NCBI GenBank assembly: GCA_945861315.1
Contig: CAMAUB010000033.1
Coordinates: 1-9,687, forward strand
DNA: 9,687 nucleotides
Reading direction: 5' to 3'
DNA from: Chlamydia trachomatis
GTDB taxonomy: Bacteria > Chlamydiota > Chlamydiia > Chlamydiales > JAAKFR01
The notes under the pieces were generated by a model that was not told the origin of the DNA, searched no databases, and saw only the letters and a program-made list of their open reading frames with translations. The number at the start of each line of letters is the position of its first letter. The first letter of the stretch is position 1. Below, in pieces: positions 814-9,687 of the stretch. The translations under genes and the position numbers were made by a program.

Positions 814-1665
814 ATGGATCCAACAGGAAGTTCTCCACACTCTGCCAGGGAATCTCGATCCGAGGCAAATCAAGATCAACCTTCTCTTTGCGAAGGCGTT
901 ATGTCCTTTTTTGTAAGGCGGTTTTATCATAGGGTTAGTCAAGAGCCCGCCCCTGCGACCTGTGAACGCCCAATTCGAAGCATTTTCCCCACACCACCCG
1001 AAAGGGAGTATACCGTTCGTCTCTTCGATAGACATATGCAGGACTATTTACCCAAAGAGGTTCTGCGTAGGCTTGCTGAGGTAAGAACATCTGACGATCT
1101 TAAGCACCTCACTTTGGAGGTAAGAGTAGAATGTGCTCGATACAATGCTCTTAGCGATGGAAGTGGTAGACTTAGCACTCAAAGTGCATCTGCATATGAC
1201 TACACAAATTTGGCTGAAAAATGGGCCGTCCTCGAAGCGCTACTTGGCAAGCCTTGTATTGAAAGAAGATTTGAACTGCTAGAACAATTCAATACTTTTG
1301 ACACATTTGAAGGTCCTACAGAAATCATTGAGCGTATGAGAAATCAATTTCATACAGTGATAGTTGTCCTATTTGGTCAATTTCGCTTTGAACGGGAATG
1401 GAGAACACTTTCACCAGCAGAACTACTTAAAGCCTTAAAAAATATGAGTGAGATTGCCGCTAAGCTCATGCCTTCTTCTGAATATTTGGATCAAAGTAGT
1501 GCAATTCCCCGCTTTGCTGCTAAAGTTGAAGATGGAGACTTCCATGATCTTGCAGACCATCTAATTGGCTTGCAAAATCTTGCCGATCAACTTCATTGTT
1601 TTTACTTAGTTTCGCGAGTTCAGCAAAAAAATATCCATTCCATCTTAAGTATAACTTGGATATGA
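814..1665 (+). CDS. hypothetical soluble helical protein
   Basis: I do not recognise this family. The 283-residue product has a Ser-, Asp- and Gln-rich, probably disordered first 30 residues, followed by a largely helical, charged body with no membrane span or signal peptide. Candidate helices include about 85-125 (rich in Leu, Arg and Glu) and 225-270. A Ser-rich, unstructured N-terminus is compatible with a type III secretion signal, but that is only a suggestion. There are two plausible starts. The ATG at 814 has no Shine-Dalgarno sequence. The in-frame ATG at 901 (residue 30, MSFFVRR) is preceded by GAAGG a few bases upstream and would give about 254 residues. The stop lies 8 bases before palindromic element A, so the C-terminus may have been reshaped when that element arrived. 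It follows the pseudouridine synthase closely on the same strand. Confidence 0.7.
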   Translation: MDPTGSSPHSARESRSEANQDQPSLCEGVMSFFVRRFYHRVSQEPAPATCERPIRSIFPTPPEREYTVRLFDRHMQDYLPKEVLRRLAEVRTSDDLKHLTLEVRVECARYNALSDGSGRLSTQSASAYDYTNLAEKWAVLEALLGKPCIERRFELLEQFNTFDTFEGPTEIIERMRNQFHTVIVVLFGQFRFEREWRTLSPAELLKALKNMSEIAAKLMPSSEYLDQSSAIPRFAAKVEDGDFHDLADHLIGLQNLADQLHCFYLVSRVQQKNIHSILSITWI

Positions 1666-1673
1666 CTGTCTAG

Positions 1674-1837
1674 TATACCCAAACAACTTGAAGAATTGGA
1701 TTTGGGCTGACGTGAAAGCTCATGCGATTGAACGATCATAAACGACCAAATATTAGAAATATGGGATTGTTTATGATCGTTCAAGCCCAGGGCTTTGACG
1801 CAGCCGAAATTCCAATTTTTCAAGTTGTTTGGGTATA
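1674..1837. repeat. element A: 164-bp near-perfect palindrome
   Basis: The whole gap between two genes folds on itself. The outer arm TATACCCAAACAACTTGAA (1674-1692) is repeated exactly in inverted form at 1819-1837. Pairing continues inward through ATTGGA, GGCTG, AAAGC and TTGAACGATCATAAAC to ATATT (1750-1754), a 3-base turn and AATAT (1758-1762). Only a few mismatches and single-base gaps interrupt arms of more than 70 bases. The inner core (1711-1737; inverted partner 1775-1800) is shared with element B. The element carries no ORF of its own. Transcribed RNA would form one long hairpin. A TA dinucleotide at each end would fit a Tc1/IS630-type miniature element, but the ends are themselves palindromic, so a target duplication cannot be shown. 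The next gene's ATG follows directly at 1838. Confidence 0.92.
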
Positions 1838-2074
1838 ATGCTCCTTCTAATTCTGATTTTTTGCTTAGCTATTTTGATTCCAATTTTTCTCAAGAGAAAA
1901 AAAAATAAAAGACGCGTAGATGCTGTCTTCTTGGATATAAAAAAATGGAAGAGTCAGGTAAAAGAGTTTAAAAAGCATGCCGGCAGATCAGATTTGGACA
2001 CTGAAAAATTAGAAATGGCAGAAAATCGCCTCACATTTGCAAAAAATGCTTACAAGATTAAGATGAAGAGATGA
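1838..2074 (+). CDS. small single-span membrane protein, hypothetical
   Basis: The 78-residue product has a hydrophobic segment at about residues 1-18 (MLLLILIFCLAILIPIF), then a very basic stretch (LKRKKNKRR) and a charged helical tail of about 50 residues that may form a coiled coil. By the positive-inside rule the tail should be cytoplasmic. I chose the ATG at 1838. An in-frame TTG at 1829 exists, but it lies inside the arm of element A and adds only three residues. There is no Shine-Dalgarno sequence; the bases before the start belong to the palindrome. The gene ends in an ATGA overlap with the lipoprotein gene, so the two are probably translated together and may work together. The function is unknown. 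Confidence 0.62.
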   Translation: MLLLILIFCLAILIPIFLKRKKNKRRVDAVFLDIKKWKSQVKEFKKHAGRSDLDTEKLEMAENRLTFAKNAYKIKMKR

Positions 2075-2808
2075 TTTTTAGACTTATCTTAGTGGCAGTA
2101 CTTTTTCTAGTTGGTGGATGCGGATCTAAAAGTCCCGAGTTTGGAGAGCACTCCATTGGGCGTGATCCAACATGGTTTCCCCTTAACTTTAAGTTACAAA
2201 CAGCAAATATCAATGCCTTTGTAAACTCGCTTGTCGCTGCTATTGCACGCACTGAGCATATCCCCATGCGCATTTTAGATGTCGATTGGGACTCCCTTTA
2301 TACCCATCTTGAGCAAAAGAGCTATGCTGGAGCCTTTACCTCATTTCCAATGAATGAAGAAAATCTTGGCCGCTACTCTTTCTCCAAGCCCTTTTTACTT
2401 CTAGGTCCAGTTTTGATTGTTCCAGAGCATTCAAATGCTACAACTCTAAGCGATCTTCGCAACAAGGTGGTTGGAATCAATCAATTTGATGATTCCATAT
2501 TGATCGTACAAAAACAACCAACCATTATTATCAAGCTTTACCAGAATATGCCAACGGCGCTTGAAGAGCTTGCTGCTGGCCGCATTGATGCAGTCTTGAT
2601 GCCAACTCTAGAAGCGCACGCGCTTGTCCCAAACCTTTATCCTGGAATGCTCAAAATTGTGACACCTCCTCTTTCGGATAAGGCACTTCGCCTAATCACA
2701 CTTAAAGGAGAGAATGAGCAATTGATCAAATGTTTCAATAGAGGCCTCAAAGAGATGAAGATAACAAAACAGTATGAACTCTTGCGTGAAAAGTTCGGTG
2801 TCAACTAG
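2071..2808 (+). CDS. amino-acid ABC transporter substrate-binding lipoprotein (SBP_bac_3 type)
   Basis: This looks like a periplasmic binding protein for a polar amino acid, of the kind that delivers ligand to an ABC importer. Residues 1-16 are a short signal peptide ending in the lipobox LVGGC, so Cys17 should be lipidated. The body has the family's features: YSFSKPFLLLGPVLIV around residue 101, a hinge-region segment LSDLRNKVVGI near 126, and ALEELAAGRIDAVLMP near 162, equivalent to the G-R-(I/V)-D-A motif of family 3 binding proteins. At 245 residues it has a normal length. Chlamydia carries relatives named FliY and ArtJ; which ligand this one binds cannot be told. No permease or ATPase for it is present here. 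Its start overlaps the preceding small gene by four bases, and the stop lies just before the hairpin at 2811-2840. Confidence 0.85.
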   Translation: MIFRLILVAVLFLVGGCGSKSPEFGEHSIGRDPTWFPLNFKLQTANINAFVNSLVAAIARTEHIPMRILDVDWDSLYTHLEQKSYAGAFTSFPMNEENLGRYSFSKPFLLLGPVLIVPEHSNATTLSDLRNKVVGINQFDDSILIVQKQPTIIIKLYQNMPTALEELAAGRIDAVLMPTLEAHALVPNLYPGMLKIVTPPLSDKALRLITLKGENEQLIKCFNRGLKEMKITKQYELLREKFGVN

Positions 2809-2810
2809 TC

Positions 2811-2840
2811 TATACCCAAAACTCAGGTTATTTGGGTATA
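2811..2840. repeat. 30-bp hairpin with element-A-type ends
   Basis: TATACCCAAA (2811-2820) and its exact inverse TTTGGGTATA (2831-2840) enclose ten bases, ACTCAGGTTA. The 10-bp arms are identical to the outermost ten bases of both ends of element A, but the conserved inner core is missing. It begins two bases after the lipoprotein stop codon, so it could act as a transcription stop or an RNA-stabilising hairpin. No run of T follows, so it is not a standard intrinsic terminator. It may be a minimal member or remnant of the same repeat family. Confidence 0.75.
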
Positions 2841-2845
2841 ATTCT

Positions 2846-3049
2846 ATGAAAATGGTTTGGGCCGTCATTATTTTGTTTGTGCTTGTAATGGGAACAGTTG
2901 TAGCTGTCGCGTTCAAAATTCCTTCAAATCAAACAGGCATTGACCCAGCCAAAATTGCACAGCTGCGGCTTGATAATGGCTCGCCCAAGAATAACTTCTT
3001 CATCCAAAACTGCGCCAAAGCCCCTCCCTTAGGGCCCGTAAAACAATAA
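2846..3049 (+). CDS. small single-span envelope protein, hypothetical
   Basis: The 67-residue product has an N-terminal hydrophobic span at about residues 4-23 (VWAVIILFVLVMGTVVAVAF), followed by a polar tail of about 44 residues with a single Cys (FFIQNC) and a Pro-rich end (APPLGPVKQ). I chose the ATG at 2846 because the membrane span begins directly after it. An earlier in-frame ATG at 2774 would overlap the lipoprotein gene and place a polar stretch before the span; ATG 2852 is also possible. No Shine-Dalgarno sequence is visible. The last six codons and the stop are part of the left arm of element B, so the C-terminus may be altered or truncated. The topology and a DsbD_2-like neighbour faintly recall the FixH/CcoH oxidase-assembly proteins, but it is much shorter than those and I see no diagnostic motif. 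Confidence 0.55.
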   Translation: MKMVWAVIILFVLVMGTVVAVAFKIPSNQTGIDPAKIAQLRLDNGSPKNNFFIQNCAKAPPLGPVKQ

Positions 3050-3197
3050 CATGGACGACTGGATGGCGCCCAAAGCCCCGGGATTGAACGATCGAAATGG
3101 AGTTAGTATATTGACTCATACGAACTCCATTTCGATCGTTCAATCGCAAGAGCTTTCGCGCTAGTCCAGTCATCCATGTTATTATTTTACGGGCCCT
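3031..3197. repeat. element B: 167-bp near-perfect palindrome
   Basis: The left arm starts AGGGCCCGTAAAA (3031-3043) and the right arm ends with its inverse, TTTTACGGGCCCT (3185-3197). Pairing continues through AATAACATGGA, GACTGGA, AAAGC and ATTGAACGATCGAAATGG to GTAT (3106-3109), an 8-base loop ATTGACTC (3110-3117) and ATAC. By eye about 70 of 80 arm positions match. The inner core (3067-3093 and its inverted partner 3134-3160) is shared with element A, while the outer arms are unrelated to A's. The left arm contains the last codons and stop of the upstream gene, and the right arm ends one base before the downstream start codon at 3199. No ORF of its own is present. Confidence 0.92.
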
Positions 3198-3198
3198 T

Positions 3199-3843
3199 AT
3201 GATTTTCTCTTTGATTCCTATCTATATTTTTGGAAATCTCCACTGCATTGGGATGTGCGGGCCTATAGTTATGCTTTTAGCAAAGCACCCCCATCGTTGG
3301 CTCTATTTTTGGGGCAGAATTGCCTCTTTTTCTCTAGCCGCCCTACTGGCTGCTGAGGTTGGTCTTCTATTTTCTTCCTCATATTTCTCTCTTGCTGTTG
3401 GAACTTCTATCTGCATGATGGGAATTTTCCTTCTATTTCATCTATCTCTTCCAACTTCAAAGCGAGTTTCAAAACCTCTCGCGCGCATTGGAGCACTTGT
3501 TTCAAAATTAATTCTGATCAACCATCCAATGGCCACTTTTCTTTTTGGTTTTTGTACCGTCTTATTACCTTGCGGACAGAGTTTGATTGTCTTTTCTGCT
3601 TGCGCCTTGGCTCCCTCTGCTTGGATCGGCTTTTTCAATGGGTTTTTGTTCGCTCTATGCACCTCTCCATCTCTTGTCCTAGCGATGTATGCATCAACGC
3701 TTTTTCGTAGATGGCAAGATAAGTATCGCTTCATAATGGGTGGGATGACCCTCTTTATTGGATTACTTGCACTTCTACGTGGCTTTGCGAATTTAGATCT
3801 AATTCCCCACCTCACTCTCCCTCACCATATTGTCTTGTATTAA
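3199..3843 (+). CDS. DsbD_2 / TauE-SafE-like integral membrane protein
   Basis: This polytopic inner-membrane protein has about six hydrophobic segments (roughly residues 3-25, 36-58, 64-83, 112-134, 142-166 and 180-196). The N-terminal motif HCIGMCGP at 15-22 (Cys16, Cys20) and LLPCG at 122-126 (Cys125) are the signature of the DsbD_2 family, often annotated as sulfite exporter TauE/SafE or urease accessory UreH-like. Family members are frequently found beside copper or cbb3-oxidase assembly genes and are thought to handle metals or thiols, though their activity is poorly defined. The length of 214 residues is close to usual. The ATG at 3199 begins one base after element B and has no Shine-Dalgarno sequence; the motif starts only 14 residues in, so this start is near the true one. 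No oxidase genes are in the window, so the role here is open. Confidence 0.8.
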   Translation: MIFSLIPIYIFGNLHCIGMCGPIVMLLAKHPHRWLYFWGRIASFSLAALLAAEVGLLFSSSYFSLAVGTSICMMGIFLLFHLSLPTSKRVSKPLARIGALVSKLILINHPMATFLFGFCTVLLPCGQSLIVFSACALAPSAWIGFFNGFLFALCTSPSLVLAMYASTLFRRWQDKYRFIMGGMTLFIGLLALLRGFANLDLIPHLTLPHHIVLY

Positions 3844-8819: not shown

Positions 8820-9671
8820 TTAAGTGCTAGCTCTAGGCACGAAAAATGTTACTAGCGGGCTCCCTCCTGCTTCTCTCCGAAGAAAGAAATCTCCTCTAGA
8901 AAGAGAGAAGCTCCTGCTCATTGGTGCATCTGATGGACTCATCCTTAGCCCCGATTGGACTGATTTGATACTCGCATCTATGTCTTTCTGATCCTGAAAC
9001 GACAGAACACCAGTAGGCACGAAAAATGTTACTAGCTCGCCTTCTGCTGATTTCTGAAGAAAGAGAGTCCCTCCAGAAATGGACACCCTCTTGTCTAGGG
9101 ACACCCTCTTGTCTATTGGTTGAGTTGGATCCAACCGTAGCCCCTCTCTCATTCTTGTGGCAGCTTCATCTATTTTTCTCTGATCCTCAGGCGATAATGA
9201 GAGAATAGTAGCATCAGTAGTTGGTACGAAAAATGTTACTAGCTCGCCTTCTGCTGGGTGCCGAACGAAGAAAGTCCCTTTAGAAAGAACGTGGCTCTCG
9301 GTTAGTCTTCCAGCTGAATCAACACCTATGAGCTGCTGTGCTTCTCTGACAGCAGCATTTATTGTTGTCAGATCATCAGGCGATAGAGCATCAAGATCAA
9401 CTAGAGTTCGCTTTGGAAATCTTATGCAACGTAAAGCAAGAACAGCAATCAAACCTAAACCAACACCACCTGTTACAACGGAGCATGCTATTAGGCCCGC
9501 CGGGCTAACTGCAAAGGCTCCCAAGTGCATTGCTAGAGTAATACTAATTGCAAGAAATAAGTTCATAAAATCATGCCAGACCGTGCAGTAGATTTGATCA
9601 AGCATTTCGAAGCTCATATTATTAAATATGAGCGAGAAAGGGTTGTTCAAAGATGCTGTGCGAGATGGCAT
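8820..9671 (-). CDS. two-span protein with three tandem repeats, candidate inclusion-membrane protein
   Basis: I do not recognise this family. Residues 35-55 and 57-80 are two closely spaced hydrophobic helices separated by SPAG, the two-lobed pattern typical of chlamydial Inc proteins, which are type III secreted into the inclusion membrane. After the basic RCIRFPKR come three repeats of about 60 residues (95-150, 157-219, 223-279). Each has a charged helix (LSPDDL, LSPEDQ, LSFQDQ), a linker and a probable beta hairpin ending in an identical LVTFFVP. Repeat 2 contains an extra 6-residue duplication (DKRVSLDKRVSI). There is no cleavable signal peptide. I chose the ATG at 9669-9671; Met19, preceded by TTTAATAAT, is an alternative and keeps both spans. 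No Shine-Dalgarno sequence is visible. The stop lies 8 bases from the oppB stop, with no terminator between these convergent genes. Confidence 0.75.
   Translation of the reverse strand: MPSRTASLNNPFSLIFNNMSFEMLDQIYCTVWHDFMNLFLAISITLAMHLGAFAVSPAGLIACSVVTGGVGLGLIAVLALRCIRFPKRTLVDLDALSPDDLTTINAAVREAQQLIGVDSAGRLTESHVLSKGTFFVRHPAEGELVTFFVPTTDATILSLSPEDQRKIDEAATRMREGLRLDPTQPIDKRVSLDKRVSISGGTLFLQKSAEGELVTFFVPTGVLSFQDQKDIDASIKSVQSGLRMSPSDAPMSRSFSLSRGDFFLRREAGGSPLVTFFVPRAST
8836..9243. repeat. three direct copies of an 18-base DNA repeat inside the repeat-protein gene
   Basis: ACGAAAAATGTTACTAGC occurs without change at 8839-8856, 9019-9036 and 9226-9243, with the preceding bases nearly the same (GGC, GGC, GGT). 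The copies are 180 and 207 bases apart, both multiples of three, and encode the LVTFFVP end of each protein repeat. Copies two and three also share the next stretch, TCGCCTTCTGCTG. Identity at silent positions suggests recent duplication or gene conversion. Confidence 0.9.
9081..9116. repeat. 18-base tandem duplication
   Basis: GGACACCCTCTTGTCTA is present twice head to tail, at 9081-9097 and 9099-9115. The period of 18 bases adds six residues in frame to the second protein repeat (DKRVSLDKRVSI). It looks like a recent replication slippage event and could vary between strains. Confidence 0.9.
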
Positions 9672-9687
9672 GAGTTTGTCAACTTAT

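Follow-up and report, generated by a model that had tools for sequence, protein, structure and literature searches.

MITEs are usually seen as shrunken copies of one parent transposon, in which the ends have been kept and the middle has been lost. The Correia elements of Neisseria (NEMIS or CREE) are described as hairpins in two size ranges (104-108 and 153-157 bp) that have variant inverted ends, a conserved directional core, a frequent association with TA targets, processing by RNase III, and an IHF site that may help synapsis of the ends (PMC2649163). As described in PMC2229807, the RUP element of Streptococcus pneumoniae is 107 bp long, occupies TA targets, and has ends like those of IS630-Spn1, its proposed mover; ERIC (also IRU or RU-1), which is found in many species of enterobacteria, is a 127-bp palindrome with TA at its ends and a target duplication; and YPAL (RU-2) of Yersinia is a palindromic element of about 168 bp for which empty and filled sites are known. 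As to the Chlamydiota, the string "chlamyd" is absent from the accessible part of a 2024 review of prokaryotic MITEs (PMC10969869), the accessible part of the Waddlia genome paper deals with repeats and transposases without using "palindrom," "inverted repeat," or "mite" (PMC2878342), and that of a paper on spider endosymbionts with Rhabdochlamydia lacks "miniature" and "IS630" (PMC9997750). We found no report of the hairpin family described here in the open-licence literature.

The hairpins that we describe here are ordinary in kind, being hairpin MITEs of the Correia, RUP, and ERIC type, and are unusual in that a constant centre is combined with differing ends. They resemble Correia elements, as these are described, in having a conserved core and inverted, variable ends. 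However, Correia elements are described from one genus and have 26-bp ends with small variants, whereas the present hairpins have unrelated arm classes, two types of target duplication, and a core that is found across a phylum. In the account given by PMC2229807, RUP differs in having one arm family in one species, with no exchangeable arms reported; ERIC differs in having a 7-bp terminal repeat and no arm classes tied to different transposons; and YPAL differs in having ends without TA and duplications of 3-26 bp.

The stretch of DNA under study (the window) is 9,687 nucleotides long and comes from a metagenomic contig of 12,258 bp. Around the two hairpins, A and B, are co-directional genes for a pseudouridine synthase, a hypothetical protein, a small membrane protein, a family-3 solute-binding protein (with relatives in records named Chlamydiales or Chlamydiae), a second small membrane protein, a DsbD-like protein, and a pyridine-nucleotide oxidoreductase. 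Element A (positions 1676-1835, plus strand) is 160 bp long, has ends of the TATAC type, and is bounded by TA dinucleotides (1674-1675 and 1836-1837); its left core, GAAAGCTCATGCGATTGAACGATC, is at 1714-1737 and its right core, GATCGTTCAAGCCCAGGGCTTTG, is at 1775-1797, both on the plus strand. Element B (3032-3196, minus strand) is 165 bp long, has ends of the TWA type, and lies between TTA duplicates (3029-3031 and 3197-3199), with its left and right cores on the minus strand at 3134-3157 and 3071-3093, respectively. The final codons and the stop of a small membrane-protein gene (2846-3049, plus strand) are now within B. Between A and B is element C (2813-2838, no strand assigned), a 26-bp hairpin that is bounded by TA dinucleotides (2811-2812 and 2839-2840), has A-like ends, and is a relative without the core.

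A first-pass annotation made from the letters of the window had called A and B nearly perfect inverted repeats with dissimilar outer arms and a shared 27-base core. The long inverted repeats are confirmed at these places. The predicted RNA folds of A and B (-96.5 and -119 kcal/mol, respectively) were equalled by none of 200 shuffles. The boundaries of the elements have been refined to those given above. The repeats are nearly but not fully perfect: in each element 32 of the 40 nucleotides outside the core match ungapped, and the core has mismatches as well. The core match is exactly the one claimed, with 25 of 27 positions identical between A (1711-1737) and inverted B (3134-3160), as compared with a best 27-mer of 18 in 40 shuffled A/B pairs, and the outer arms are indeed dissimilar, being identical at 14 of 37 positions. 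A search of Rfam gave five matches at E ≤ 1, none of which reached its own gathering score.

Elsewhere in the window, a predicted gene on the minus strand (8820-9671) contains three imperfect units of about 190 bp with GELVTFFVP-like encoded stretches, and its match to DUF6916 is weak and below the cut-off. The start of this gene, at the window's end, holds an imperfect palindrome of about 130 bp (9557-9687), which gave no match to the core model described below. A hypothetical gene without a Pfam match (814-1665) lies between the pseudouridine synthase and small membrane-protein genes; in the related locus L001 these two genes are adjacent, without the hypothetical gene between them.

A and B are members of one hairpin family that extends across the Chlamydiota, far beyond the window. 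A 24-letter pattern for which A and B were the sole sources matched 45 of 232 Chlamydiota genomes when three mismatches or fewer were allowed, with up to 95 matches per genome, whereas the reversed pattern, used as a control, matched none of the 232. The core match, already above that of shuffled sequence, is thus not peculiar to these two places. The same pattern had no matches in 11 genomes that were reached via gene neighbourhood. A covariance model of the inner 104 positions, built from 30 copies (A, B, and 28 others), detected the family in 100 of the 232 genomes at E ≤ 0.001; the copy numbers that it yields are floors, as at most 17 candidates were scored per genome. One of the 11 neighbourhood genomes, the MAG to which locus L004 belongs (G004), was matched by the model, and among genomes G012-G032, many of them of 1.0-1.2 Mb, G013 and G016 were the only ones matched. 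Outside the phylum, plasmids (searched with positions 1674-3197, plus one element), phages, and E. coli gave no match, nor did viral contigs with the exact pattern. Many copies of the family are at contig ends. A Parachlamydiaceae MAG locus (L008) has many long hairpins of other sequence, of GGGGTCAGGCCTG and ACCACAGAGG types (for example at 157-253 and 10749-10875), that are without the family core.

To describe a typical copy we used 149 full elements from 141 loci, which gave 138 usable copies (elements too near the end of a locus or containing N were left out) and 120 unique ones. The 68 copies in which both cores are present have a near-fixed layout: a 40-nt arm is followed by the left core (24 nt), an inner stem-loop, the right core (23-24 nt), and a second 40-nt arm. 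The core hairpin between the arms is 88 nt long. The consensus of the left core is near GAAAGCTCCCGCGRTTGAACGATC and that of the right core is GATCG(A)TTCAAYCCCGGGGCTTTG. Automatic end-calling gave a length of 160-172 bp for 99 of the 138 copies, the remainder including overshoots into the flanks. There are conserved differences between the left and right cores, with 109 C.C and 92 G.G cells in the core among the 120 unique copies, and the orientation is clear in all 149 full elements (at least 19.3 bits between strands). The inner stem is variable but preserves its pairing, both sides having changed in 24 of 39 pairs; on this point the first-pass annotation, which had suggested selection for folding, was right. 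Individual copies depart from this layout: in L019 (1371-1564) the inner stem-loop is longer and of different sequence while the core and arms are kept, in L043 and L046 the inner loop is inverted, and in L050 the right arm holds a copy of the end. The last three look like the products of template switches within the palindrome. In L097 and L050, both from genome G041, the arm of a full copy contains a short hairpin without the core.

The arms can be alike within a genome and are unrelated between arm classes. In G041 one arm type is present in all 17 fetched copies, and 374 arms of that type were counted. Sequence of the TATAC type is found at both ends of 70 of the 120 unique copies and TWAGG at both ends of 14; by the crude pattern that we used, the remainder are CTAG-type, variant, or mixed. 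A belongs to the TATAC type, its arms matching a second end sequence found in G041 at 25 and 24 of 26 positions. B is of the TWA type: both of its arms match L030 at 18 of 26 positions and they match L028 at 18 and 16, whereas the match to L032 is weaker and that to L017 is not above shuffles. Identity in the inner 88 nt is uncorrelated with identity in the arms (Spearman -0.016 over 7,140 pairs of the 120 copies, the pairs not being independent). Inner identity was at least 90% in 195 pairs, and in 53 of these the arms were at most 45% identical, as compared with a mean of 34% and a 95th percentile of 42% for shuffled arms; the arms of the remaining 142 pairs are more alike. To take one pair, the centres of L017 (TWA-type) and L025 (CTAG-type) are 98% identical and their arms 33%. 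Conversely, in L323, from genome G095, TWA-type arms of 40 nt enclose another centre, which is core-less and of similar size; the end sequence of L323 recurs elsewhere in G095. Pieces of the core remain in the short forms L313, L314, and L316, which we therefore take to be internal deletions. G041 also contains short forms that are core-less, so the core is evidently dispensable for some copies. Thus, as judged by comparing copies, arms and core are separable, and the combination of a conserved centre with replaceable arms, first noticed in A and B, holds across the phylum.

Relatives of the window reveal how two of its hairpins arrived. L001 (SP4CHLAM17), L002, L004, and L005 lack the hairpin, and in each of them the small gene overlaps the DsbD-like gene as ATGA. 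B sits exactly at that overlap: when it is removed from the window together with one TTA, the sequence becomes TTATGA and the overlap is restored, the stop of the small membrane-protein gene then overlapping the start of the next gene. At the position of C, L001 reads TCAACTAGTCTA identically to the window and then continues without the hairpin. From these empty sites we infer that B and C were inserted, bringing their own arms. For A there is no clean empty site, as L001 is without both A and the adjoining hypothetical gene. In the class to which B belongs, 14 of 15 copies are flanked on either side by an identical TTA or TAA (compatibility of the ends with TA or AA was a condition of the search), and inverted pairs 64-171 bp apart have matching TWA in 31 of 32 cases among the places listed, a set that overlaps the 15 copies; given a free choice between TTA and TAA, about half of the pairs would match. 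This 3-bp duplication implies a second transposase. Duplications of 3 bp with the sequence TWA or TNA are typical of IS5/IS1031- and Harbinger-type enzymes. In the TATAC class the TA belongs to the palindrome, and the evidence for duplication is therefore the single empty site of C in L001. In sum, the hairpins have the hallmarks of MITEs: lengths (160 and 165 bp) that are too short for a transposase gene, self-matching arms, a target-site duplication (TWA in the class of B), and, in G041, many copies with conserved ends.

What might have moved them? IS630-family (DDE_3) genes are present in 77 of the 232 genomes; six genomes searched beforehand had none. We fetched 32 DDE_3 loci (L251-L282) and compared the 14 with candidate end pairs with all arms (for L260, one end only). 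For seven of the 14 (L257, L271, L268, L280, L273, L252, and, with one end tested, L260), the match to some arm exceeded that obtained in every one of 100 shuffles. L271 gave the closest match of these, its two ends agreeing with an arm at 25 and 26 of 26 positions; the other seven were not consistently above shuffles. The matched ends are TATACC, TATACTGC, ATACCATT, TATATAG, and CTAGTGTC. TATAC- and CTAG-type arms match IS630-family terminal repeats in the phylum, and the arms of A in particular match the end of L257 at 20 and 21 of 26 positions, which was equalled in none of 1,000 shuffles. The core was not found between the ends of any of the 14 IS630-type elements, and in L268 and L273 hairpins lie outside the IS element. 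In L253 (G004; 724-830) half a hairpin abuts an IS630-type transposase gene, as though the loop had been the insertion site of the element. The presence of DDE_3 genes is not associated with that of the hairpins (they occur in 35 of the 100 hairpin genomes and in 42 of the other 132, p = 0.67), and the hairpin-rich G041 has none; many copies may therefore be leftovers of lost engines. For the TWA class we found no IS630 end of its type in the fetched loci, no PF13359 or PF13340 match in 11 genomes searched for each, and, at the listed places, no pair of TWA-type ends separated by 0.8-2 kb. DDE_Tnp_1 (PF01609), present in six of six genomes, was rejected as a partner: at 26 loci no matching end pair surrounds a gene, single end-like patterns being near six of the 26, and a recheck for TWA-type ends yielded no engine for that class.

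The first-pass annotation was therefore right about the hairpins, the core, and the replaceable arms, but its argument that a constant centre speaks against a MITE is not supported. Conserved outer ends, which it had named beforehand as the finding that would tell against it, are what the copies of G041 display, with one arm type in 17 of 17 as in a normal MITE; in addition, several arm types match IS630 terminal repeats, and the sites of B and C are empty in relatives.

That the hairpins are structured RNAs or mRNA-processing signals, such as RNase III targets, selected to fold in place would accord with the very stable folds of A and B and with the pairs changed on both sides (24 of 39), but we consider it improbable. 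On the oriented strand G.T exceeds A.C in the arms (89:68, p = 0.11) and in the inner stem (42:25, p = 0.05), but the excess is slight and, the copies being related, the counts are not independent. Likewise, own arms match each other better than permuted arms do in eight of nine genomes, but in G041 (30 copies) 1857 of 2000 permutations were at least as good as the own arms, and the eight other genome sets mix arm families, which could yield a better own-arm match. We read the symmetry of the arms mainly as a property of the transposing lineage. Nor does position point to a role in transcripts. Among 124 distinct sites, 44 are between co-directional genes, 22 between divergent genes, and 16 between convergent genes, 33 are centred inside a mechanical ORF of at least 90 aa, and 9 are without a gene within 600 bp on one side, ORF calling being crude. 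At the 44 co-directional sites 18 copies have the same orientation as the genes and 26 the opposite one (p = 0.29); given this lack of strand bias, the transcribed, RNase III-processed role that the first-pass annotation had suggested is not indicated at each place. Moreover, B breaks a conserved gene overlap.

Two further explanations invoke movement of another kind. The core module might insert into existing palindromes, such as terminators, the arms being the target; the occurrence of the same centre in unrelated arms and of core-less hairpins with the same ends would fit this idea, to which we nevertheless give very little credence. We rejected it on account of the empty sites of B and C in relatives, which contain no palindrome, and it sits poorly with arms that are conserved among G041 copies and match IS630 ends, and with short forms (L313, L314, and L316) that keep pieces of the core. 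Alternatively, a Y1 (HUH, REP/RAYT-like) transposase might move the hairpins as single-stranded DNA. Y1 genes are present in 93 of the 232 genomes and in 47 of the 100 hairpin genomes, but the association is not significant (p = 0.08), 53 hairpin genomes, including G041, are without a Y1 match, and duplications of 2-3 bp together with long terminal repeats are features of DDE-type enzymes. We have rejected Y1 enzymes as partners and hold this to be the least probable of the explanations considered.

The evidence as a whole makes it very likely that A and B are non-autonomous, MITE-type hairpins whose arms are likely the recognition sites of transposases encoded elsewhere. The arms of A would be recognised by an IS630-type transposase and those of B by a putative TWA-duplicating enzyme; judging from the sequence matches, transposases of other elements would move the hairpins in trans. 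Recombination within the palindromes, or a switch of template there, may be the source of new pairings of arm and core. Least certain is why the core is kept. By analogy with Correia elements, it might act as a bend bound by protein, or as an extruded hairpin, that helps the two ends to meet, and we favour a hinge or protein site for end pairing as its putative role. That the core contains a two-way promoter (TTGAAC, 17 nt, TATT) was considered and set aside. A scan of positions 1600-3300 gave five sites (one of them in B) as against 3.7 expected. Among the 120 copies the pattern occurs with at most three mismatches in 41 of 240 strands, compared with 15 of 240 shuffled ones, but the letters TTGAAC are among the less conserved; a core promoter is a weak idea only.

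A bolder proposal, for which we put the chances at a little under even, is that the core hairpin is a long-lived module with its own history that has been re-paired as a whole, on both sides at once, with unrelated transposon ends and has been kept for a function of its own. The core would then spread by switching engines between TA- and TWA-duplicating classes across the Chlamydiota, and its function would be that of a host-protein site or a folded hinge rather than recognition by one transposase.

The Chlamydiota hairpins reverse the usual picture of a MITE, in that across a phylum of intracellular bacteria they retain the middle while the ends vary and target duplications of two kinds occur. 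They also bear on the annotation of environmental chlamydial genomes, as the end of a gene can be supplied by an inserted copy in place of the original one; B is a case in point. Finally, if module exchange is true, the family would provide a natural series for learning how a gene-less parasite changes its transposase and what the core of a MITE does.
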